This document shows positions 47,298 through 62,223 of a DNA stretch of 64,000 nt, one piece after another (the stretch's first letter is position 1; each line of letters starts with the position of its first letter). The position numbers and the translations under genes were made by a program. The DNA comes from an uncultured Trueperaceae bacterium (GTDB lineage Bacteria; Deinococcota; Deinococci; Deinococcales; Trueperaceae), in the NCBI GenBank assembly GCA_937873495.1, contig CALMXZ010000010.1:310001-374000 (forward strand). The letters run 5' to 3'. The notes beneath the pieces are model-generated. The model made no database searches. It had not been told where the DNA came from and saw only the letters and a list, made by a program, of their open reading frames with translations.

Positions 47298-49385
47298 CTA
47301 GAACCCGCAGACGGGGGCGCCGAGGCCGCCGAGCGCGTCGAGCTCGCCGGCGCTTAGTGGCCCTCTCGGCAACGTCCCTACCAGCCGACCGGCCGCGAGT
47401 CGTTGCGAGAGCGTCGTCCCCCACTGGGCGTTCGGGTTGATGGCCACCTCGTAGAGCGGCTGGCGCAGTTCGTGGTCGGTCGGGCGGAAAGCGACGTCGC
47501 CTGCCTTGCCGCCGAGGCTCCCGGCATCGACCTCGAGCAGTGCTGCGCTCAGCGCGGCGCCGTCGGCGCTGTCCGCCAGGCGCGCCGCGGCCGTCAGCAC
47601 GGCGACGGCCTCGTAGGCGGCCCAGGCCGGGGCGTCGAACGGCTGACCCCAGCGTGCCGCGAACCGCTCGTTCGTGTCTGCTGCCGCGGCGCCGAGCGTC
47701 GGTTCCCAGAGCTGGATGCGCGGCACGTCCCTGCCGACCCCGTAGCGGTTGGTCGACGCCAGGAACTCCCGCGTCTGCGTGACGGGGTCGGGGAAGGGCG
47801 CCATGCGCAAGGCGTAGCCGCCGTCCTCCGCCTGACCGATCAGCGCCACCTGATCGGCGGCGTCGAGCAGCACCGCGACCACGCCGGCCCCCAGGCTCGT
47901 CGCCTCGTCTAGGAGGTCGAAGTAGACGGGGCGCGCGGTGGGCACGCCGCGGCTCCCGACCACGACGTCGCCGACGGCGGCGGCGGCGAGCGTCGCCCTG
48001 GCCAGGAGCGCCTCGCCCTCGCCGCCCTCCGGGTAGACGACGTACCACCGCTGCGGAGCCGTTCCGTTCCGGTAGAGGCGCGCCATGGCGTCGAGGTAGG
48101 CCCCGGCGGACGGTTGCACGTGGAAGGTAGTCGGCCGGCACTCCTCACGCAGGGCGAGGCTCGGCGAGCCGATGTTGACGAACGGCACGCCGTGCGCGGC
48201 GGCCAACTCGGCGAGGGCCTCCGCCTGGCCGTCGCCGATGCCGCCGAGGATGGCGTCGACCTCGCCGAGCGAGAGCAGGGCGTCCGCCGCCCGCGCCGCC
48301 GCCGCGGCGCTCGGGCTGCTGGCGAGCAGGACGCGCACGTCGCGGTCGGTCGTGGTCCCGGCCTGGTTGACGACGGCCTCGGCCTGCAGCGCGCCCATGC
48401 GGGCCGCGTTGCCGACGAGGTCGTTGACGCCGGCTATGAACGTGCGCCCGCCCGTCGGCATGGGGATCACGGCGCCGACCCGCAACGTCGTCGGCGGCAG
48501 CGCCGAGTCGCCGAGGAAGGGGGCGGGCATGTCGAGGAGGGGCACGTGGTACTCGCGCAGCACGGCCTGGATGTCGTCCCACCTGGCGACGATGGCCCGG
48601 TTGAGGCGCTCCTGCATGGCGACGTCGTTACGCCGCACCGCCATCGTCATGGGCAGGTACTCGAAGATCGATGGGAAGTCGAAGGCGGGCTCCACCGGCT
48701 TGACGACGAGCTCGACCTGGCTGAGGGCGGCGTAGTACGCCATCACCGGACCCCAGCCGAAGCCAACGTCGATGGCACCCGACCCGATGTCCCTCACCAC
48801 GACGCCGAGGCGGTCCTTGCCCTCCTCCCCGCCGTAGATGCGAGCCACCCTGTCGATGAGCCGCCGCTGGCGTAACGCCTCGTGGGGTGGGATGCCGAGC
48901 CCCTGCACGCCCAGTCTGAGGTCTGCGAGGTCGGGGTCGTCCATGTCGTCGATGTCGAAGCCGGCGTCGGCCCGGTAGACGAGCACGTAAGGGCTTTGAT
49001 AGTAGGTGATGGTGTTGAGGCCCTTCTCGAAGCCGTCGGGCACGCCCATTATCACGTCGCACGTGCCTTCGGCGAAGTGCAGGTTGACGAGGTCGGAAGT
49101 GAAGGGGGTCCAGTCGTAGGTCAGGTGCGCGCCGAGCTCCTCTGCCAGGAGGGCGGCGATGCGGTTCTCGAAGCCTTCCTCCGCCTGGTTCGAGAAGGGC
49201 ATCTCGTCGGGCGCGGCGCAGACGCGCAGCTCCCAGGCGTGCTCAGAACTCTGCGCCGCGCCGCTCGAGAGCGCGGCGAGTGCCAGTGATACGAGCAGCG
49301 TCAGATAGGCGGCGCCGAGCTTGGGGTGGGCCGGGCGTCGTGAAGGCCTAGCGGTAGATAGTGTCGTGTCAACGCCTCGGAGCAT
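47298..49385 (-). CDS. Fused MoxJ/XoxJ-like and Peripla_BP_6-like periplasmic protein of a PQQ dehydrogenase system
   Basis: 695-aa exported protein made of two binding-protein folds. After a signal region (residues about 24-46), residues 50-295 match the quinoprotein-dehydrogenase-associated family of SBP_bac_3-like proteins (MoxJ/XoxJ): ELRVCAAPDEMPFSN, AEGTCDVIMGVPDGFE, YYQSPYVLVYR and GAIDVGFGWGPVMAYY. Residues about 300-695 match the binding protein of the PQQ alcohol dehydrogenase ABC system: VPFVNIGSPSLALREECRPTTFHV and HELRQPLYEVAINP. A stand-alone paralogue of the second half is encoded at 56672-58003. XoxJ proteins are thought to help assemble or activate the dehydrogenase. The fusion is unusual. 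The gene follows the dehydrogenase across a hairpin with a T-rich tail. Confidence 0.85.
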   Translation of the reverse strand: MLRGVDTTLSTARPSRRPAHPKLGAAYLTLLVSLALAALSSGAAQSSEHAWELRVCAAPDEMPFSNQAEEGFENRIAALLAEELGAHLTYDWTPFTSDLVNLHFAEGTCDVIMGVPDGFEKGLNTITYYQSPYVLVYRADAGFDIDDMDDPDLADLRLGVQGLGIPPHEALRQRRLIDRVARIYGGEEGKDRLGVVVRDIGSGAIDVGFGWGPVMAYYAALSQVELVVKPVEPAFDFPSIFEYLPMTMAVRRNDVAMQERLNRAIVARWDDIQAVLREYHVPLLDMPAPFLGDSALPPTTLRVGAVIPMPTGGRTFIAGVNDLVGNAARMGALQAEAVVNQAGTTTDRDVRVLLASSPSAAAAARAADALLSLGEVDAILGGIGDGQAEALAELAAAHGVPFVNIGSPSLALREECRPTTFHVQPSAGAYLDAMARLYRNGTAPQRWYVVYPEGGEGEALLARATLAAAAVGDVVVGSRGVPTARPVYFDLLDEATSLGAGVVAVLLDAADQVALIGQAEDGGYALRMAPFPDPVTQTREFLASTNRYGVGRDVPRIQLWEPTLGAAAADTNERFAARWGQPFDAPAWAAYEAVAVLTAAARLADSADGAALSAALLEVDAGSLGGKAGDVAFRPTDHELRQPLYEVAINPNAQWGTTLSQRLAAGRLVGTLPRGPLSAGELDALGGLGAPVCGF

Positions 49386-49555: not shown

Positions 49556-51376
49556 TCAGGGCAGACCGAAGACGTACAGCGTCGTACCGGCACGGCGGTA
49601 ACGGCCGGCGTTGTCGGCCGTCGTGTCGGTGCCGATCTGCGGGTCGGTCGGGGCCTGGCTCGTGACGACCGCCAAGTACTGCCGGCCGTCCGGGCCCGTG
49701 AAGCTCATCGGCGAGCCACGGAAGTTGGAGCCCGTGCGGAACGTCCAGAGGACCTGGCCGGTGCGGGCGTCCACGGCGCGGAACTCGCCCGTGTCGGTGC
49801 CGCCGAAGACGAGGTTGCCTGCCGTCGCAAAGACGGGCTTGGCGTCGTTGCCGGTCGAGGTCTTGAGGCCCCAGGCCTTCTGGCCGGTGACCGGGTCCCA
49901 CGCCTGCAGTTCGCCGGTCCAACCGCCGGGGCCGTCACCGATGTTCGTGAAGCTCATCAGGATGTAGCTCTCACCGGGGGTGTACTCGGCTTCCGTGCCC
50001 GTGAAGGTCGCGCAGCGGTTCTCCGCCTGGAAGTAGACGAGGCCCGTGGCGGGCGAGTAGGCGTCGTTGTACCAGTTGTTGCCCGCGATGAAGGGGCACA
50101 CCGAGATCGGCGTCGGGATGTCCGTGTAAGTGAGGGCGTCCTCGTTGTAGATCGGCATGCCGGTCGCGCGGTCGACGCCGGAGGCCCAGTTGACGTTCGT
50201 GTACGCGAACACGTCGCGGACGAGCTCGCCCGTCAGGCGGTCGAACACGTAGAAGAAGCCGTTGCGGGCGGGCTTGATGAGGGCCTTGACGACCTGGCCG
50301 TCGATGGTGAGGTCGGCCACGAAGTTCTGGCCCGGCTCGTCGAAGTCCCACTGGTCCTGCGGCGTGTTCGAGTACGCCCAGATCATCTCGCCCGTCGTCG
50401 CGTCACGCGCGATGGTCGAGGCGCAGTACTTGGACATGTACTGGTCGAGGCCCGGCGCGGTGGCCGGGTCGCGGCGGTAGTCGGGGTTCCACGGGCCGCA
50501 GTTGGCGGTGCCGTAGTAGAAGAGGTTCGACTCGGGGTCGTAAGTGAAGTAGCCCCACGCCGTGCCGCCGCCGAGCTTCCAGGAGTCGCCGTACCAGGTA
50601 TCGACGCCCGGTTCGGTCCAGCGCTTGTCGGCCTCGTAGAAGGGGTTCCAGCGTTCGCCGATGCCCATGTCGGCGTTAGGGCCAGTGTTGTAGAACTTCC
50701 AGACCTCGGCGCCGGTCTGGAGGTCGTAGGCGGCCACCCAGCCGCGCACCCCGCGCTCGCCGCCTTCGTTGCCGATCAGGATGTTGTTGCCGACGATGAG
50801 GGGGGCGTTGGTCGTGGTCTCGGTGATGCTCAGGTCCGTGACCTGAGTGTTCCAGAGCACGGCGCCAGTGTTGGCGTTGAGCGCGATGAGCTGGCCGTCG
50901 AGCGAGTTGAGGATGATCTTGCCGTCGGCGTAGCTGATGCCGCGCGACTGGGCGCCGCAACACGCTTTGGCCTGCGAGAGGTTCGGCTGGTCGACGCGGT
51001 ACGACCACTTGATGAACCCTTCGCGGGTGAGGTCGAGCGCGTACACCGTGTTCGGCTTCGGCGTGAGGATGTACATGGTGTTGCCGACCACGATGGGTGG
51101 GGCTTCGAGGGAGTCCGTGACGCCGAGCTGCAGCGTCCACTTCACCTGCAGGTTCTTGACGTTGTAGCTCGTGATCTGGTTGAGCGTGCTGTAGTTCCAG
51201 CCCTGATAGTTGCCGTTCGCCATCACCCACTGGCCGGCATCGCGCTGGATGCGGATGAGTTCGGCGTTGGCGAAGGCCGCACCGACCGTGAGGAGTAAGG
51301 CGAGCGCGCAGCCGAGCGCGATGGAGCGTCGGCCACTGCGTTTGGCGGTTTGCTTATACGTCATGCTTGTTGCCAC
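49556..51376 (-). CDS. PQQ-dependent alcohol dehydrogenase with lanthanide-type Asp-x-Asp signature
   Basis: Periplasmic eight-bladed quinoprotein of 606 aa, methanol/ethanol dehydrogenase family, oxidising alcohols and passing electrons to cytochrome c. The signal peptide ends near AAFANA. Visible active-site features are the vicinal disulfide Cys139-Cys140 (KACCGAQSRG), metal ligand Glu207 (GGERGVRG), Asn292 (YGTANCGPWN), catalytic Asp344 and Asp346 in QWDFDEPG. Asp at catalytic position +2 marks lanthanide-dependent XoxF/ExaF/PedH enzymes; calcium enzymes have Ala, Ser or Thr there. Tryptophan-docking repeats (DARTGQVLW type) occur throughout. The start is GTG at 51376; an ATG at 51364 has similar support. 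It lies 81 bases after its cytochrome gene. The exact alcohol is unknown. Confidence 0.95.
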   Translation of the reverse strand: MATSMTYKQTAKRSGRRSIALGCALALLLTVGAAFANAELIRIQRDAGQWVMANGNYQGWNYSTLNQITSYNVKNLQVKWTLQLGVTDSLEAPPIVVGNTMYILTPKPNTVYALDLTREGFIKWSYRVDQPNLSQAKACCGAQSRGISYADGKIILNSLDGQLIALNANTGAVLWNTQVTDLSITETTTNAPLIVGNNILIGNEGGERGVRGWVAAYDLQTGAEVWKFYNTGPNADMGIGERWNPFYEADKRWTEPGVDTWYGDSWKLGGGTAWGYFTYDPESNLFYYGTANCGPWNPDYRRDPATAPGLDQYMSKYCASTIARDATTGEMIWAYSNTPQDQWDFDEPGQNFVADLTIDGQVVKALIKPARNGFFYVFDRLTGELVRDVFAYTNVNWASGVDRATGMPIYNEDALTYTDIPTPISVCPFIAGNNWYNDAYSPATGLVYFQAENRCATFTGTEAEYTPGESYILMSFTNIGDGPGGWTGELQAWDPVTGQKAWGLKTSTGNDAKPVFATAGNLVFGGTDTGEFRAVDARTGQVLWTFRTGSNFRGSPMSFTGPDGRQYLAVVTSQAPTDPQIGTDTTADNAGRYRRAGTTLYVFGLP

Positions 51377-51457: not shown

Positions 51458-52234
51458 TTACCGCCGGGAACTCACCTCCTCTGGAAGAACGGCACCGTAG
51501 TCGTTGCCGAAGGAGTTGCGTACGAACGTGATGACGCCGGCGATCTTCTGGTCGTCGAGAGCGGCCTTGAAGGGCGGCATGCCGTGCTCGATGAAGCCGT
51601 TGAGCACGCGTTCGACGATGAAGTCGGTGTTGCCGACGATGGTGTTGCTTGCCAGGGCCGGACCGATGCGCCCTTCGCCCTTGTCGCCGTGGCACACGGC
51701 GCAGTTCGCGGCGAAGACGGCCGCGCCCTCCGTCATGAGCGCGTCGAGGGCGGTCTCAGGGAGATCGACCTTCTGCTCGGGTAGCTTGTCGAGGATGGCG
51801 TCGCCGGCGGGAGACACGAGGAAGAACTCGCCGCCGAGCTTCTGACCGCGCGTCGTGCCGGGCGCCGTGTCGCGCTTGAAGGTGTAGAGGGGGTGACCGT
51901 TGTAGGTGAGCTGGACGCTGCCGTCGGCGCGCGTGGCGGTGCCGACCAGGCTCTGGTCGGCACCTTCGCCGGCAGTGGCGACGCCGTCCTCGCCCGCGAG
52001 CAGAGCGATCCAGTTGTTGGCGCATGCGTCGACACAGGCGCTGGCGTCGGCCTCGTCCTTCGTGTACAGGTAAAGGGAGTGCCCATCGGGCGTGACCAAG
52101 TAGGTGCCGTAGTCGGCCGTGGTGACGACCGTGAGATCGGCCGGAGCCGCTTCCTGGGCGATGACGTAGAAAGTCAGGCCGGCCACGACCAGTGCCGTGA
52201 GTAGGGCGAGACGTTTGAGCTTCCTGTCGATCAT
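51458..52234 (-). CDS. Secreted-repeat (Lipoprotein_15) domain fused to cytochrome c
   Basis: 258-aa exported protein. A signal segment (residues 8-27) is followed by a domain with two copies of the secreted-repeat motif: GTYLVTPDGHSLYLYTKD with CVDACANNW (residues 42-75) and LTYNGHPLYTFKRD through LGGEFFLVSPAG (109-144). The C-terminal cytochrome c (165-245) has the heme motif CAVCH at 178-182 and likely axial Met219 (HGMPPF). Its place directly upstream of the dehydrogenase suggests it is the electron acceptor (XoxG/ExaB role). GGAGGAG lies 6 bases before the ATG. Fusion to the repeat domain is unusual for this partner. Confidence 0.9.
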   Translation of the reverse strand: MIDRKLKRLALLTALVVAGLTFYVIAQEAAPADLTVVTTADYGTYLVTPDGHSLYLYTKDEADASACVDACANNWIALLAGEDGVATAGEGADQSLVGTATRADGSVQLTYNGHPLYTFKRDTAPGTTRGQKLGGEFFLVSPAGDAILDKLPEQKVDLPETALDALMTEGAAVFAANCAVCHGDKGEGRIGPALASNTIVGNTDFIVERVLNGFIEHGMPPFKAALDDQKIAGVITFVRNSFGNDYGAVLPEEVSSRR

Positions 52235-54884: not shown

Positions 54885-55853
54885 TCACGGCGCGGCCGAC
54901 CCGGCGACGATCGGGAGCGAGAGCTCGGCCGTCAAGCCCCTCTCGGAGTTGGAGAGGTTGAGGTCGCCCTCTAGCGCTTTCGCCAGGAACGCGACGAACG
55001 ACAGCCCCAACCCCATGCCGTCGCCGTCGCCGGCGCGGTAGAACGGCTCGATGGCTCGCTCGAGGTGAGGCGAGGCGAGGCCGGGCCCTTCGTCGTTGAC
55101 TGAGAGGGTCACGAAGCGCTCGCCGACCCGCAGCTCGACCGTCGCGCCGCCGCTCCCATGCCGCAGAGCGTTGTCGAGCAGGTTGGTCACAGCTTGCTGG
55201 AAGAGGCGCGCGTGCCTGACGGGCGTGTCAGCTAAGGCCGGCAGGAGCCTCACGCGGCCCCGTTCGTCGGGGGTGAGGCCGGAGATCACGTCCGTGACGA
55301 CGGCGGAGGCCGAACGCGTGTCAGGCTGCGGCTCGGAGGCGCGCGCGAGCGCCAGGAGCGCCGCCAGGATCTCTTCCAGCTGCGCCACCGCGCGCGCCAG
55401 CGCGGGCATGACCTCGGCAGCGGGGACGTAGCCGAGCTGGGCGCGCTCGATCTGCAGCCGCATGGCGCTCAGGGGCGTACGCAGCTCGTGGGAGGCGTAG
55501 CGGGTGAAGGCCCGTTCGCGGTCGACGTACCCCTCGATGGTCGCGGCCATGGCGTTGAAGCTGGTCGCCAGTTCGGCGAGCTCGTCTCTGCCGGCAGGGA
55601 CCTGGAGCGGCCGGTCGAACGACTGGCGTGCGACGTGCCTGGTCGCCTCGGTCAGCCGCCGCAGCGGCGCGCCTATGCGGCGGGCGAGCAGCCAGGCCGC
55701 GAGGACGGCGATGCCGAGCATGATCGGGATGTCGATCAGGTCGAGGAAGAGCCGCTCGTCCTCGAACTGGTCGATCCACACGTCGAGGAGGCCCTCCACG
55801 AGGATGGAGCACGCGACCGCGCCGAGCACGGCGACGAAGACGGAGCGCCGCAC
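54885..55853 (-). CDS. Two-component sensor histidine kinase
   Basis: Inner-membrane kinase of 322 aa. Two N-terminal helices (about 4-20 and 40-58) enclose a periplasmic loop of only about 20 residues, so there is no dedicated sensor domain. A HAMP domain (about 60-112) leads to the dimerisation/phosphoacceptor box SHELRTPLSAM (His near 121) and a HATPase domain with the N-box NLLDNALRHG, NDEGPGL and GMGLGLSFV. It lies 1 base after the response regulator stop. Its place inside the PQQ island suggests, but does not prove, that it responds to alcohol oxidation or envelope state. Confidence 0.93.
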   Translation of the reverse strand: MRRSVFVAVLGAVACSILVEGLLDVWIDQFEDERLFLDLIDIPIMLGIAVLAAWLLARRIGAPLRRLTEATRHVARQSFDRPLQVPAGRDELAELATSFNAMAATIEGYVDRERAFTRYASHELRTPLSAMRLQIERAQLGYVPAAEVMPALARAVAQLEEILAALLALARASEPQPDTRSASAVVTDVISGLTPDERGRVRLLPALADTPVRHARLFQQAVTNLLDNALRHGSGGATVELRVGERFVTLSVNDEGPGLASPHLERAIEPFYRAGDGDGMGLGLSFVAFLAKALEGDLNLSNSERGLTAELSLPIVAGSAAP

Positions 55854-55854
55854 G

Positions 55855-56514
55855 TCAGGCCGGCCCCAGCCGGTAGCCGCCCGGCACGGTCTGGATGATC
55901 CCGTCGGAGATCTTGTGGCGGAGCTGGCTGACGTAGACGCGCACCACGCTGGCGCCGGACGTGGCCTCGGGGAAGAAGCGGTCGAGGAGCTCGTCCGTGC
56001 TGAACGTGCGGTCGGGGTAATGGGCGAAGTACTCGAGCATCACGAACTCGCGCTCGGTCAGGTCGACGTTGGAGCCGGCCCACATGACCCTGCGCGTCGT
56101 CAGGTCGATGCGCAGCTCGGCCCTCTCGAACACGGCGCGCTTGGTGTCCGCGACGCGGCGGAGGAGCGCGCGTACCCGCGCCATGAACTCACGCAGGCCG
56201 AACGGCTTGTAGAGGTAGTCGTCGCCGCCGAGGTCGAGGCCCATGACCGCGTCGCCTTCGGTGTCGCGCGCGCTCATGAACATGAGCGGGGCGAGGAAGC
56301 CCTGGCTCCGCAGCGTCGTGGCCACCTCGAAACCGGCGTCGTCGTTGCCGGGGAACATGACGTCGAGGATGGCGAGGTCGAAGCCGCCGCTGGTGAACTC
56401 CTGGAAGACGTCGTCCGGGCGCTCCACCCACCTGACGTCGTAACGCTGCGACTCGAGGGCCTCGACGAGCGGCTCGGCGATGTCGCGGTTGTCTTCCAAC
56501 AACAGGATGCGCAT
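55855..56514 (-). CDS. OmpR-family response regulator
   Basis: 219-aa regulator. The receiver domain has acidic Glu7/Asp8 (LLLEDNRD), phosphoacceptor Asp in AILDVMFPG, Ser in FMSARD and Lys in YLYKPFG. The winged-helix domain (about 125-218) includes LTEREFVMLEYFA and VRVYVSQLRHKI. It is the first gene of the RR-HK pair and is divergent from the periplasmic binding protein gene; a 14-bp perfect palindrome lies between them. Confidence 0.94.
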   Translation of the reverse strand: MRILLLEDNRDIAEPLVEALESQRYDVRWVERPDDVFQEFTSGGFDLAILDVMFPGNDDAGFEVATTLRSQGFLAPLMFMSARDTEGDAVMGLDLGGDDYLYKPFGLREFMARVRALLRRVADTKRAVFERAELRIDLTTRRVMWAGSNVDLTEREFVMLEYFAHYPDRTFSTDELLDRFFPEATSGASVVRVYVSQLRHKISDGIIQTVPGGYRLGPA

Positions 56515-56671: not shown

Positions 56672-58003
56672 TTGAACGAAGCCGTCAGATCATCGATCGG
56701 TGACGATGAAGCGCGTAACGGGGCCGTACGGCGGTTGAGGCGGAGCGCGGCGACCACGGTCGCCGCGCTCGCGCTCCTCGTCGGGACGGTGAGTGCGCAG
56801 GAGGGCCTGGAGGCCGGCTTCCGGGTCGGGATCGTCCTCCCAGGTCCGGGCGAGGAAGGCGCCGCTATCAGCGGGGCGCTGGCGCGCGGCGCCGCGCAGG
56901 GCGCCGCGATGGCGAACGACGAGTTCGGCTTCAACGCGGAGATGCTCGGCTACGTGTTCTCTGCGGAGACGGCGGTGGCCGACGGCCCCGAGGGCGTCGT
57001 GGCCGCCGCGCAGGCGCTGCTGGACGAGCACGGGGTCTACGGCGTCGTCGGCGGCTTCGACCTGGCCGAGGCCGAGGCCCTCGCCGAATGGTCGGCCGAG
57101 GTCGGGGTGCCGTTCATCAACGTCGGCGCCTCCGCCGACGTGCTCCGCAACGAGCAGTGCCGGCCGACGCTCTTCAACGTGGAGCCGAGCGCGGCCATGT
57201 ACCTGGACGCCATGGCCGGCTGGTACGTGCGCTCCGGTCTGCGCGACTGGTACTTCCTGCTGGCCGGCGACGACGAGTCCGCGGCGCAGCTGGGCCGGAT
57301 CGAGCGCACCCTCAACGAGCGCCACTTCGCGGCGAACGTCGCCGGCAGCACGGTCGTCGGACCGACCACCGACTGGGACGACATCGCGGCGCGCATCTCA
57401 CGTTCGCGCGCCGACTTCGTCATCCTCTTCATGGGCGCAGAGGACCAGCTCGCCGCCGTCCACGAGCTGGACGCGCGCGGGGTATCCGCCATGGTGACCG
57501 GCTACCCCTACCAGGCGGCGCAGACCAGGGACTTCTACCGGGCGTGGCGCGCCGCCGCCCCGACGCTCGGCGCCGGTCACCGCATCTCGGCCTGGGAGGC
57601 GACCCTCGACGCCTACGGCGCGCGTGAGCTCAACGCCCGCTACCGCATGACGTACGGCGAGCCAATGGACACGAGCGCCTGGGCCGTCTACCAGGGCGTG
57701 AAGATCCTGTACGAGGCGGCGTTCTTCGGCAGCTCGGCGGCGCCGGACGCCGTGATGGCCTACCTCACCGGCCCGCAGTCGGTGTTCGACGTCTGGAAGG
57801 GCATCGGCACGAGCTTCAGGCCGTGGGACCACCAGCTGCGCCAGCCGCTCTACCTCGTGAAGATCGACCGGACCGAGGAGGCCGCGTTCACCCTCGCCAC
57901 GTTGGTCGGCGAGCTCCCCGCCATCTACATGCCGGGCACTGAAGTCGTCGAGCGGCTCGACCAGTTGGGCGAGTTGGCGGCCGCCAGCCGCTGCGGCAGG
58001 TGA
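56672..58003 (+). CDS. Periplasmic binding protein of the PQQ alcohol dehydrogenase ABC system
   Basis: Exported Peripla_BP_6-like protein of 443 aa. A twin-Arg-like basic stretch and signal (VAALALLVGTVSAQ) precede FRVGIVLPGPGEEGAA. VPFINVGASADVLRNEQCRPTLFNVEPS and HQLRQPLYLVKI are the features of the binding protein found with PQQ alcohol dehydrogenases. The same segments occur in the second half of the fused protein at 47298-49385. The TTG start has GGAGG 9 bases upstream; a longer frame has no SD. It heads the plus-strand arm of the island. Confidence 0.87.
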   Translation: MNEAVRSSIGDDEARNGAVRRLRRSAATTVAALALLVGTVSAQEGLEAGFRVGIVLPGPGEEGAAISGALARGAAQGAAMANDEFGFNAEMLGYVFSAETAVADGPEGVVAAAQALLDEHGVYGVVGGFDLAEAEALAEWSAEVGVPFINVGASADVLRNEQCRPTLFNVEPSAAMYLDAMAGWYVRSGLRDWYFLLAGDDESAAQLGRIERTLNERHFAANVAGSTVVGPTTDWDDIAARISRSRADFVILFMGAEDQLAAVHELDARGVSAMVTGYPYQAAQTRDFYRAWRAAAPTLGAGHRISAWEATLDAYGARELNARYRMTYGEPMDTSAWAVYQGVKILYEAAFFGSSAAPDAVMAYLTGPQSVFDVWKGIGTSFRPWDHQLRQPLYLVKIDRTEEAAFTLATLVGELPAIYMPGTEVVERLDQLGELAAASRCGR

Positions 58004-58105
58004 GGCCTGCTTACTTACGTTCGCCTTACGTAGCGACGATAACGTGGTGCGGCACGACCCTCGTGACTCACTGCCCTGGTGTCGTAGCGTCGTTCGCTCG
58101 TACAT

Positions 58106-58128
58106 GCTCGCGCTCGTTGGACGCGAGC
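58106..58128 (+). other. Stem-loop abutting the SD of the beta-propeller gene
   Basis: GCTCGCG/CGCGAGC, a 7-bp stem with a 9-base loop, ending directly before the GGGAGG SD. It could modulate translation initiation or stabilise the transcript. No direct evidence. Confidence 0.35.
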
Positions 58129-58139
58129 GGGAGGAGACC

Positions 58140-59186
58140 ATGGAGCATCCGAAACGTCTCGCCGCCGCCATCCGCGTAGGCTTGCTCGCCCTGGGGGTCG
58201 GCCTGGTGTCGGCCGCCGGCACGGCGCTGGCCCAGGACTCGTACCGGCTGTACGTCGCCAACGAGTTCAGCGCCGACATCACGGTCATCGACACGGCGAG
58301 CGGTGAGGTCATCGATACCCTGTCCATCTCCGGCAGGCCGGGCGAGGTCCGGCCGCGCGGCATGGCGGTCAGCCCGGACGGCACGATCGTCTACGCCTCG
58401 GTGAGCGACTTCAACCCGGTGCTCGAGACGCCGGAGGACAAGATCCTCGCCATCGACGTGCGCACCAACGAGGTCGTGCGCGAGTTCCGCGCCGGCGGCA
58501 ACCCCGAGCGGGTCGCGGTCAGCCCCGACGGCACGCAGGTTTGGGCGGCCCTCGAGGCGATCGCCCAGGGCGCGGGCTACGACGCCGTCACCGGCGAGCA
58601 GCTCGCCAGCTTCCGAGTGGGCGTCGAGGCCGAGGGCGTGGCGGTCAGTCCGGACGGCAAGTGGGTCTACATCACGGCCGAGGCCACCCACACGGTCACG
58701 GTGATCGACCGCGAGGCGCTCAAGGTCGTCACGCACGTGCTGGTCGGCAACCGGCCCCGCGTCGTCGAGTTCTCCAACGACGGCAGCAGGGCGTACGTGA
58801 CCGCCGAGATCGGCGGCACCGTCTCCGTCATCGACACGAGCACGCACAAGGTCGTGAACACGATCAACCTCGGCCTCGACTCGCGGCCGGTCGAGATCGC
58901 CGTCGATCCGACGAGCTCCCTCATCTACGTGGCGGGCGGCGGCACGAGCGCCGTCTACGTCATCGACACGACCACCGACCAGATCGTCAACACGATCAAG
59001 GAGAACATGGGGCGGCGCCCGTGGGGCATCGCCATCACGCCGGACGGCAAGACGGTCTTCACGGCCAACGGCCTCTCGGATAGCGTCAGCGTCATCGACA
59101 CGGCCTGCGGCTGCGTCGTCAAGAACATCCCTGCCGGTCGGGGTGCCCACTCGGCCGAGATCGGAGTGATCCCAGGTGGTATCTAG
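58140..59186 (+). CDS. YVTN beta-propeller protein of the PQQ alcohol dehydrogenase system
   Basis: Exported seven-bladed beta-propeller of 348 aa. The signal peptide ends at GTALAQ. Repeats of the YVTN type follow: RLYVANEFSADITVIDTASGEV, VAVSPDGTQVWAAL, VYITAEATHTVTVIDRE, IYVAGGGTSAVYVIDT and VFTANGLSDSVSVIDT in turn. This is the family annotated as PQQ-dependent catabolism-associated beta-propeller. GGGAGG precedes the ATG at 58140 by 5 bases. A Cys-Gly-Cys near the C-terminus (TACGCVV) is noteworthy. It overlaps the next gene by 11 bases. Confidence 0.9.
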   Translation: MEHPKRLAAAIRVGLLALGVGLVSAAGTALAQDSYRLYVANEFSADITVIDTASGEVIDTLSISGRPGEVRPRGMAVSPDGTIVYASVSDFNPVLETPEDKILAIDVRTNEVVREFRAGGNPERVAVSPDGTQVWAALEAIAQGAGYDAVTGEQLASFRVGVEAEGVAVSPDGKWVYITAEATHTVTVIDREALKVVTHVLVGNRPRVVEFSNDGSRAYVTAEIGGTVSVIDTSTHKVVNTINLGLDSRPVEIAVDPTSSLIYVAGGGTSAVYVIDTTTDQIVNTIKENMGRRPWGIAITPDGKTVFTANGLSDSVSVIDTACGCVVKNIPAGRGAHSAEIGVIPGGI

Positions 59187-60261
59187 GCTCTTCCGCGGCA
59201 CGGCGCTCGCGCTCGTCGCCGCCTTCATCGCTACGGCCTTCGCCCAGTACGGCTACCAGCCGTTCTTCGACCAGCCGCTCATCCAGAGCCGTGCGTACGG
59301 CATGGAGCTCATCCTGGTGCGGCTGCGCGCCATCGACCAGTTCGACGCGCCGCTCGACGACGACCTCATGGAGCTGATCGAGCTGATCGGCGAGAGCGAC
59401 GTCAACCGCTTCATAGGCACGGTGCGCGCCGCCGATCCTGAACTGGCTGAGGAGCTGCTCGACGAGATCGAGGAGCTCGAGGAGAAGGCGGAGGAGGGCA
59501 GGAACCACCACGGCTCCGTCCGCGAGGTCCGCGAACTCACCGAGCGTGCCTACGACCTGATCATCCCGTCCGAGATCCGCAAGTCGCCTGCGTTCCTTGC
59601 TGCGTTGATCGCCGATCTCACCTTGGGTGAGGGCGGTATCGCCGAAGGTTACGAGGAGGCCATCCTCGACGAGGAGCCGTTCCTGTTCACTGGCGGCTGG
59701 TCCTCGCTGCAGAGCGTCAAGGAGCTATGGTCGCAGCTCGCCGTCTACGCCACACCGGCGCAGGCCGCCGACGTGAACGAGATGCTCGCCCAGCTCGACG
59801 GCATCTACTTCGCCCCTGAACCGCCGGAACCCCTCGTCGGCAACCCCGAGGAGGCCGAGGCGCCGGCCCAGCGCATGCTTGGCCTCATCGAACCCATCGC
59901 CGACGCCGAAGTGTTCGCCGGTCGCGACATGCAGGCGTTGGCCGTCAGCCTCGTCGCCACGCAGGCGCAGGCGTGCCGCGCCTACGAGGCAGGCAACGAC
60001 GAGGTGGGCCTCGAAGGCGTGTACGCCGTCGGCGAGATGTACGCCAGGTACCTGGCCGGGTTCCTCGGCTTCATGGCCCCCGACGTGCACGAAGAGGCTG
60101 CCGAGACCATCTACGCCCTCACCGGCATCCAGGACGAGGGGGCGGAGGACGAGGACGACGAGGACGAGGAAGACGAGCGTCCGGCGGTCGCCGACCCGGC
60201 CGACGCCTGCCGCGAACTGCTCGAGGCACTCGAAGAAGCTGTAGAGGTTCTGGGAGGCTGA
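59176..60261 (+). CDS. Unrecognised secreted protein with acidic tail in the PQQ island
   Basis: 361-aa protein, family not recognised. A signal peptide (FRGTALALVAAFIATAFAQ) precedes a mostly helical, acidic protein with Glu-rich segments (LLDEIEELEEKAEEG) and a C-terminal acidic stretch of Asp/Glu over about 15 residues near position 317-332. Two Cys occur late (QACRAYEAG and DACRELLEAL). The GTG start overlaps the propeller stop by 11 bases, so it is made with the propeller and precedes the ABC genes. Acidic runs could bind calcium or lanthanide ions, but that is only a guess. Confidence 0.78.
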   Translation: MVSRLFRGTALALVAAFIATAFAQYGYQPFFDQPLIQSRAYGMELILVRLRAIDQFDAPLDDDLMELIELIGESDVNRFIGTVRAADPELAEELLDEIEELEEKAEEGRNHHGSVREVRELTERAYDLIIPSEIRKSPAFLAALIADLTLGEGGIAEGYEEAILDEEPFLFTGGWSSLQSVKELWSQLAVYATPAQAADVNEMLAQLDGIYFAPEPPEPLVGNPEEAEAPAQRMLGLIEPIADAEVFAGRDMQALAVSLVATQAQACRAYEAGNDEVGLEGVYAVGEMYARYLAGFLGFMAPDVHEEAAETIYALTGIQDEGAEDEDDEDEEDERPAVADPADACRELLEALEEAVEVLGG

Positions 60262-60364: not shown

Positions 60365-61300
60365 ATGAGCCCGACCGGCAGCGCCACCACTGTCATGGGC
60401 GGACCCGGGGACGACCAAGCGGCCATACTTGCAGACCGGCTCGGCCGCCGTTACGGAGACGTGACGGCGGTCGAGTCTTTCTCGCTGGCCATCCGGCCGG
60501 GCGAGTTCTTCGCCCTCCTCGGCCCCAACGGCGCCGGCAAGACGACCACGCTGCACATGCTCACGACCATGGTCCGGCCCACGGCCGGCACCGCGTCGGT
60601 GTTCGGACTCGACGTCGTGCGCCAGGCCCACGCGGTCAGGCGGCTCCTCGGCATGGTCTTCCAGGATCCGGCGCTCGACGACCGCCTGACCGCCAAGGAG
60701 AACCTCGAGATCCACGCCGTCCTGTACGGCATCGGGCGCAGTGAGCGCGCGCACGTGATCGAACGGGCCCTCGAATGGGCGGCGCTCACGGAGGCGCGCG
60801 ACAGACGCGTGCGGTCCTTCTCGGGCGGCATGAAGCGGCGCCTGGAGCTCGCCCGCGCGCTCACCCACTCGCCCAGGGTCCTGTTCCTCGACGAGCCGAC
60901 CATCGGCCTCGACCCGCAGGGGCGACGCAACCTCTGGGAGCACATCGCTGCGCTCCGCGAGGGCGGCATGACGGTCCTAATGACGACGCACAACCTGCCC
61001 GAGGCCGAGGCGTGCGACCGCGTCGGCATCATGGACGCCGGTCGCCTCGTCGCCGTCGGCACCCCGCGGGAGCTCGTCGCGCGCTACGGGGGGGCCGGTG
61101 CCGGCGGAGCCGAGGTCGCGATGCCGGGCCCAGGCAGGCTAGACCAGAACGCGCCTGGCCAGGCGCCGCGGGACTCGGAACCCGCCGACCTGGAGGACGT
61201 GTTCATCGCCCTCACCGGGAAGCAGCTGCGTGACGAGCAGGCGACGGCGCGCGACCGACTGGTGAGCTTCGCCAAGCGCGGCGGGGAGCACACGCGGTGA
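60365..61300 (+). CDS. ABC transporter ATP-binding protein of the PQQ alcohol dehydrogenase system
   Basis: ABC-2-type ATPase of 311 aa. Walker A GPNGAGKTT, Q-loop VFQDPALDD, signature FSGGMKRRLELARAL, Walker B VLFLDEPTIGLD and switch MTTHNLPEAE are all intact. The C-terminal 80 residues, Gly/Pro-rich, extend past the core. In known PQQ cassettes this ATPase pairs with the permease that follows. TACTCT lies 8-13 bases before the ATG with no SD, so a separate, nearly leaderless transcript is possible. Confidence 0.92.
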   Translation: MSPTGSATTVMGGPGDDQAAILADRLGRRYGDVTAVESFSLAIRPGEFFALLGPNGAGKTTTLHMLTTMVRPTAGTASVFGLDVVRQAHAVRRLLGMVFQDPALDDRLTAKENLEIHAVLYGIGRSERAHVIERALEWAALTEARDRRVRSFSGGMKRRLELARALTHSPRVLFLDEPTIGLDPQGRRNLWEHIAALREGGMTVLMTTHNLPEAEACDRVGIMDAGRLVAVGTPRELVARYGGAGAGGAEVAMPGPGRLDQNAPGQAPRDSEPADLEDVFIALTGKQLRDEQATARDRLVSFAKRGGEHTR

Positions 61301-62223
61301 GGGCGGGGAACCAAGGGGTCCTTGGCCCCTTCGGCGCCAAGGCGGTCGGCGTCCGCTCCTTGGCCGGCATCGCTCCGGCCGTGGTGCTCGTCATGTGGCG
61401 CCGCGAGATGAAGCGTTACCTCCGCGACCGCTCGCAGATCTTCGGCGGCTTCTCCCGCACCGTGCTCTGGCTGGTCATCCTCGGCTACGGCCTCGGCGCC
61501 TCGCTGCGCGAGATCGAGGGCTACACGTACGGTCAGTACATCCTGCCCGGCGTCATCGTGCTCAACGTGCTCTTCGCCGCGCTGCAGTGCGCCATCGCGC
61601 TCGTATGGGACCGGGAGGTGGGCCTGCTCCGCGAGGTGGTCGTCTCTCCGGCGCCCATGTTCTCTGTCACGCTCGGCAAGCTCCTCGGTGGCGCGACCAT
61701 CTCCCTCATCCAGGGCTCGATCCCCCTCCTGTTCGCGCCGCTCATCGGCGTGCGCCTTAGCGTCGGTGGGCTGCTCGGCGCCTGGGGCGTGATCTTCTGC
61801 CTCGGCGTCTTCATGACGGCCGTCGGCGTCATCATCGCCACGCGCCTCAAGACGTTCGAGGGCTTCGGTAGCATCTCGAACGGCGTCATCCAGCCGCTCT
61901 ACTTCCTCTCCGGCTCGATCTTCCCGCTGCGGGGCGTCATCGGCGGGGTCGGCTTCCTTGACATCCCCGACCAGCTGCGCGACGAGCTACGGCGCATCGG
62001 GGTGTTCGCGATCGGCGGCGGCTGGGTCGTGCAGCTCCCGGAGTGGCTCAAGGTCCTCGTCTACGCCAACCCCGTGAGCTACCAGCTCGACCTGCTGCGC
62101 CACGCGCTGCTGCGCTTCCACCAGTTGCCCATGACCGCCGACGTGCTCGTCACGGTCCTGGCGCCGGTCCTGGCTGCCGTTGTGGCCGCCGCGCTGATGC
62201 GGAGGATGACGGCCCAGCGGTGA
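61297..62223 (+). CDS. ABC-2 type permease of the PQQ alcohol dehydrogenase system
   Basis: ABC-2 membrane protein of 308 aa with six predicted helices. WRREMKRYLRDRSQIFGGFSRTVLWLVI in pieces, YIQYILPGV-like GQYILPGVIVLNVLF and the later LYFLSGSIFPL segment are typical of the permease found beside PQQ alcohol dehydrogenases. It begins with GTG overlapping the ATPase stop (GTGA). It probably exports a substrate or product, or a lipid, together with the ATPase; the compound is unknown. Confidence 0.9.
   Translation: MRAGNQGVLGPFGAKAVGVRSLAGIAPAVVLVMWRREMKRYLRDRSQIFGGFSRTVLWLVILGYGLGASLREIEGYTYGQYILPGVIVLNVLFAALQCAIALVWDREVGLLREVVVSPAPMFSVTLGKLLGGATISLIQGSIPLLFAPLIGVRLSVGGLLGAWGVIFCLGVFMTAVGVIIATRLKTFEGFGSISNGVIQPLYFLSGSIFPLRGVIGGVGFLDIPDQLRDELRRIGVFAIGGGWVVQLPEWLKVLVYANPVSYQLDLLRHALLRFHQLPMTADVLVTVLAPVLAAVVAAALMRRMTAQR

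Follow-up and report, generated by a model that had tools for sequence, protein, structure and literature searches.

A XoxJ domain joined to a PedA1/LutA-like binding domain in one chain, encoded beside a lanthanide-type dehydrogenase in Trueperaceae

PedA1A2BC and Lut (LutABEF) are lanthanide uptake systems. Growth with PedH depends on PedA1A2BC when La3+ is low (PMC6839425), and LutA is predicted to carry lanthanides to LutEF (PMC7391723). XoxJ and MxaJ act on the enzyme side: they have been proposed to hold the partly folded apo-dehydrogenase while PQQ and metal are inserted, and their exact job is unsettled (PMC12997753). Known members of the XoxJ/MxaJ/PedG group (TIGR03871; PDB 6onp, 5sv6 and 9ism) are single-domain proteins of about 280–300 aa encoded beside a cytochrome and a quinoprotein dehydrogenase. 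A joined form is present in Azospirillum brasilense (WP_175426596), in which XoxJ and a rhodanese-like CXXCW protein (TIGR03865), another member of PQQ-ABC neighbourhoods, both score above their cut-offs; such an XoxJ-PQQ_CXXCW fusion lies on plasmid p2 of this alphaproteobacterium (L084:3182-4498).

Here, we describe a Deinococcota protein with the same gene company as XoxJ, in which a full-length XoxJ half is followed by about 400 aa of binding protein. It is encoded in a 64,000-nucleotide stretch of an uncultured Trueperaceae genome, hereafter the window. All components of the locus are of known kinds, and in the literature outside subscription journals we found no description of the fusion or of a binding-protein class dedicated to dehydrogenases, nor any work on MxaF-MxaJ cryo-EM or on Truepera with PQQ.

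The fused chain and its two halves

The fusion is a 695-aa protein read from one unbroken frame on the minus strand (47298-49385), from an ATG at 49385 to a stop at 47298; the plus-strand frame over the same interval contains stops. An earlier note, made from the DNA letters alone, had held that enzyme maturation and solute binding are joined here in one chain, and the single frame and the domain matches bear this out; there is no interruption into two genes. The chain begins with a predicted leader (residues ~1–44, 49254-49385, minus strand), a hydrophobic stretch ending in ...LSSGAAQ/SS, which is its sole signal peptide. The genome has no second full copy of the fusion, its only other match being the free paralogue described below.

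Residues 52–284 (48534-49232, minus strand) pass the NCBIfam model TIGR03871 narrowly, with 213.5 bits against a cut-off of 212.15. Two relatives score 233.7 and 214.7, and one more distant fusion 145. The MoxJ equivalog TIGR03870 gave 111.3 bits, under its cut-off of 258.1, and PDB matches were XoxJ 6onp (E 8e-33), 5sv6 and the MxaJ of 9ism. Judged by sequence, the N-terminal half is best labelled a XoxJ/MoxJ-family protein of TIGR03871, much as the note had read residues 50–295.

The type I solute-binding domain occupies residues 300–695 (47301-48488, minus strand). The Pfam family Peripla_BP_6 (PF13458) aligns to residues 318–650 with 109.5 bits against a gathering score of 31.7 (E 3.7e-31). 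The free paralogue proposed for the other arm of the locus is present at 56672-58003; it is 35% identical to the fused half over 334 aa (E 3e-32), and the alignment contains both shared motifs, ECRPT/QCRPT and LRQPLY, so the two are clearly related. The more specific assignment to the binding protein of PQQ-ABC systems holds only in part, because TIGR03863 (PQQ_ABC_bind) gave 47.3 bits for the fusion and 129.9 for the free copy against a cut-off of 413.6, which the positive controls from Haematobacter (485.6) and Azospirillum (483.3) passed. By profile scores, then, the C-terminal half and likewise the free copy are classed as Peripla_BP_6 proteins of the PQQ-ABC kind that fall below the curated cut-off, distant relatives of PedA1/LutA.

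Between the halves, a linker of residues 285–299 (48489-48533, minus strand) takes the place of the stop codon and second signal peptide seen in split homologues, as judged by comparison with the split genes of Bauldia, Rhizobiales and Calidithermus chliarophilus. An AlphaFold2 model of residues 41–695, built from an alignment of 20 fusions (pLDDT 90.8, pTM 0.90), predicts two well-formed domains in a confident mutual arrangement. The first domain matched two MxaJ structures, 5sv6 and the one within the MxaF/MxaJ complex (9ism), as well as XoxJ (6onp). The second matched LivJ-type folds (Z ~40), and its hits were type I binding proteins specific for aromatic acids, branched-chain amino acids, urea or amides; ligands among these structural neighbours include 4-hydroxybenzoate, vanillate, coumarate, urea and amides.

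The two arms of the locus

The left arm lies on the minus strand in the order cytochrome c with secreted repeats, quinoprotein dehydrogenase and fusion, which is the context typical of TIGR03871 proteins. The dehydrogenase (49556-51376, minus strand) scored 503.8 bits with TIGR03075 and best matched XoxF (4mae and 6fkw). A second Asp two residues past the catalytic Asp is the mark of lanthanide-type enzymes, and the residues D344/D346 align with D299/D301 of SolV XoxF (4mae). The cytochrome (51458-52234, minus strand) is probably the electron acceptor of the dehydrogenase. It combines Lipoprotein_15 repeats (PF03640) with a c-type cytochrome domain (PF13442) in an SCO0930-like arrangement, and similar proteins are encoded upstream of the dehydrogenase in nearly all cassettes.

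The right arm lies on the plus strand and matches PedA1A2BC (PMC6839425) and Lut (PMC7391723) in the order and kinds of its genes. It comprises the PedA1/LutA-like free binding protein (56672-58003, whose start is uncertain since an ATG at 56480 already opens the frame), a PedA2-like YVTN beta-propeller protein (58044-59186; TIGR03866, 221 bits, cut-off 287.3), a 361-aa protein, a PedB/LutE-like ABC ATPase (60365-61300; TIGR03864, 219.5 bits, cut-off 302) and a PedC/LutF-like ABC-2 permease (61297-62223; TIGR03861, 116.7 bits, cut-off 241). Propeller, ATPase and permease all fall below their cut-offs, and drrA-type and drrB-type models score higher for the ATPase and permease, respectively. 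On these sequence comparisons the arm resembles PedA1A2BC/Lut in gene order and composition without being a curated member. Company of the TIGR03863 type is thus true of the free copy and not of the fusion, which lies outside the ABC operon. Between the arms, a histidine kinase (54885-55853) and a response regulator (55855-56514) are encoded on the minus strand (54885-56514), and this pair also adjoins the ABC operon in several relatives.

The 361-aa protein (59176-60261, plus strand) is acidic and has no Pfam or NCBIfam match; most operons examined from Deinococcota and Alphaproteobacteria encode a homologue between propeller and ATPase. Its model is all-helical (pLDDT 87.9), with invariant Glu pairs (E157, E160, E225 and E228), an acidic C-terminal stretch and C267/C345. 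It is a candidate for a metal-binding component. A fold search gave no convincing match (best Z ~8), and a likeness to metal-binding EfeO/EfeM was rejected, since their Z scores of 7.6–7.9 do not rise above the background of helical proteins.

Fused and split forms and their phylogeny

The one-chain architecture recurs in 13 of the 111 Deinococcota genomes, 12 of them from the window's own family and the other being Calidithermus roseus. The cytochrome-dehydrogenase-fusion cassette is repeated wherever the contig covers the region, the contigs of two fusions being too short for the whole cassette (in G090, and the 3.4-kb contig L005). In each cassette with sequence on that side, the gene directly ahead of the fusion is the one for the quinoprotein dehydrogenase. 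The Asp-x-Asp lanthanide motif is present in each of the 19 complete dehydrogenases encoded directly next to a fusion, and in 10 of 10 complete ones paired with split XoxJ and binding-protein genes. In 12 of the 13 fusion genomes, the ABC operon includes a free binding protein dedicated to it; the thirteenth genome is fragmentary. One genome (G082) encodes seven dehydrogenase-fusion cassettes of widely differing sequence (L035-L040 and L005) and a single ABC operon. In the window and several relatives, fusion cassette and ABC operon are neighbours. Four relatives additionally encode a second quinoprotein gene after the fusion (L035:4528-6189, L046:6644-9907, L047:13316-15088 and L049:5210-7210, the last on the plus strand); its catalytic Asp is replaced by Gly, Ser, Glu and Ala, respectively, and these proteins are apparently inactive dehydrogenase-like subunits.

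Across 84,980 species genomes scanned, the two halves were encoded by adjacent separate genes on six alphaproteobacterial contigs (L059, L060, L062, L063, L064 and L066). The Thermus-like genome G060 (Thermaceae) encodes XoxJ, a binding protein and another PedA1-like protein in consecutive genes. These split genes specify the same halves in the same order after a lanthanide-type dehydrogenase; they differ in giving two polypeptides, the second with its own leader in the checked examples. In Bauldia (L059:1600-1660 and L060:8745-8800), XoxJ ends in a TAG, and the binding protein, which has its own Tat-type leader, starts at the very next codon, an ATG in the same frame. Because the split genes adjoin and their stop and leader correspond to a short linker in the fusions, the fusion joins genes that are neighbours elsewhere. 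Split-form contigs that extend far enough also have an ABC operon nearby, and in it a further binding protein that is free. In Calidithermus chliarophilus and Rhodobacterales, a single binding protein is encoded, between XoxJ and the propeller gene.

The fusion was not found in 289 alphaproteobacterial genomes, in 398 Pseudomonadota genomes (40 with a XoxJ match) or in plasmids (no record covering 80% of the query). The phyla sampled by genome were Deinococcota and Pseudomonadota. The genome scan was seeded with a 6-row alignment (A2), the 20-row alignment (A1) being too divergent as a seed; it is a weak test of absence from other phyla, because the seeds of A2 fall mostly within conserved parts of XoxJ.

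When 48 binding domains were placed in a tree, the ABC-operon copies formed a clade (98/95), which three single-copy alphaproteobacterial proteins joined with support of 98/93. All domains attached to XoxJ, fused or adjacent, fell outside the ABC-operon clade, and a constraint placing the attached copies together was not rejected (p 0.28). For the binding domain, a topology with one origin for every fusion was rejected (AU p 0.0008). The fusions of Calidithermus cluster with the split gene of the Thermus-like genome, which means either two fusions or one fission.

Eleven positions are near-invariant among the free copies (N88, W184, R191, F219, E309, D313, Y315, R318, E319, E348 and T423 in free-protein numbering). 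Free copies keep 10–11 of them, single copies 9–10, adjacent copies 1–3 and fusions 0–5, in a comparison where the positions were chosen after viewing the alignment and most copies within each group are kin. The single copy of C. chliarophilus keeps 10 of the 11 while lying outside the free clade. Canonical TIGR03863 outgroups are without this signature, so that the set marks only this branch of the family. The fused domain has a conserved set of its own (G381, G382, N404, R413, C416, Q537, R539, R556, W560, W588, K627 and C693).

Proposed role and ligand

We give about even weight to the reading that the fusion is a periplasmic maturation factor of the lanthanide-type dehydrogenase, with a XoxJ half that would hold the apo-enzyme and a binding half that would deliver a cofactor-related ligand. 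The XoxJ half most likely engages the apo-dehydrogenase while the latter is still partly folded, in line with proposals for MxaJ/XoxJ. The second half would be a duplicated PedA1/LutA-type binding protein that departed from the transporter and became dedicated to the dehydrogenase. It may capture Ln3+, a lanthanide chelate or PQQ in the periplasm and release it beside the open active site of the dehydrogenase, while the free PedA1-like copy would continue to serve the ABC transporter. A loading factor is the most economical reading because the binding half derives from the binding protein of a lanthanide-transport-type system, is tied to the dehydrogenase, has shed transporter features and keeps its core. 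More tentatively, and with less confidence than the general role, we suggest a one-chain loading machine for lanthanide or lanthanide-PQQ, in which a binding protein that once belonged to a transporter would act as a metallochaperone, tethered to the XoxJ domain that keeps the apo-dehydrogenase open; the split homologues of Alphaproteobacteria and Deinococcota would then form a separate XoxJ-dedicated class of binding proteins.

The kinship with LutA/PedA1 and the exclusive pairing with lanthanide-type enzymes point to Ln3+ or a chelate as the ligand. Bare Ln3+ is less favoured, as the retained arginines suggest a better fit to an anionic ligand. In favour of PQQ are the conserved arginines and the lack of any PqqE or PqqC above cut-off across the 111 Deinococcota genomes, in a search whose positive control found PqqE in 9 of 12 alphaproteobacteria. 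This argument is weakened by the presence of PqqC in four of the six alphaproteobacteria with the two-gene form, so that loss of PQQ synthesis does not accompany the dedicated binding protein. Deinococcota may scavenge PQQ; neither synthesis protein was found in the phylum's 111 genomes although one of them has seven quinoprotein dehydrogenase cassettes.

The earlier note had supposed that the binding half scaffolds the dehydrogenase and does not feed a transporter. The second part gains indirect support from the free binding protein in nearly every fusion genome, from the seven cassettes beside a single ABC operon in G082, and from the separation in the tree with the 11-residue signature largely lost. 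The first part we consider fairly unlikely: if it were nothing but a scaffold, the binding half would stabilise the XoxJ-dehydrogenase assembly, perhaps with the cytochrome, and neither transport nor deliver a ligand. The loss of the transporter-copy signature and the confident two-domain model fit this. Between more distant relatives, the fused domain is also less conserved than the free one (window genus against G082, 40% versus 59% identity; against G086, 32% versus 58%), the nearest fusion in each genome not always being orthologous, whereas within the window's genus the two are conserved alike. The two-lobed fold is nevertheless kept throughout, and the binding-loop residues and C416/C693 are conserved at 80–100% across 20 diverse fusions, which argues that the domain is not simply decaying. 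This conserved core could be structural. Its retention is explained by ligand delivery at least as well as by a scaffold, and we rate delivery above it. In favour of the maturation role, divergence of both halves tracks that of the paired dehydrogenase (Spearman 0.77 for XoxJ and 0.51 for the binding domain; none of 2000 permutations as high), although this may reflect operon duplication only.

It is improbable that the binding half captures a substrate (an alcohol, an aldehyde or an aromatic acid) and hands it to the dehydrogenase or signals its presence. Its structural neighbours bind compounds such as 4-hydroxybenzoate and vanillate, and the paired dehydrogenases are diverse, so their substrates probably differ; the same domain is nevertheless found with dehydrogenases from widely separated clades, every one of the lanthanide type, which points to a shared cofactor and not to a substrate. 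We give equally little credence to docking, in which the fused domain would still bind a PedBC/LutEF-type transporter and couple lanthanide uptake or export to maturation at the membrane. The domain is of the same family as the transporter's own binding protein and its cassette can adjoin the ABC operon, but 12 of the 13 fusion genomes have a dedicated free copy, G082 has seven cassettes for one transporter, and the residues common to transporter copies are lost. An artefact, in which a sequencing error or chance frame merged two genes of the kind separated by one stop codon in the two Bauldia genomes, is refuted by the recurrence of the single chain in 13 genomes, by the frame kept at 89–90% identity in two relatives and by the short linker replacing the second signal peptide and stop.

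The insertion of lanthanide and PQQ into periplasmic quinoprotein dehydrogenases is an open question on which the fusion bears. By placing XoxJ and a paralogue of a lanthanide-transport binding protein in one natural chain, it links the two processes, and it offers a single soluble protein for the study of ligand binding and hand-over. It also sorts the PedA1/LutA-like proteins of these bacteria into two classes, one belonging to the transporter and one dedicated to the dehydrogenase, and the residue signature that distinguishes them is accessible to mutation.
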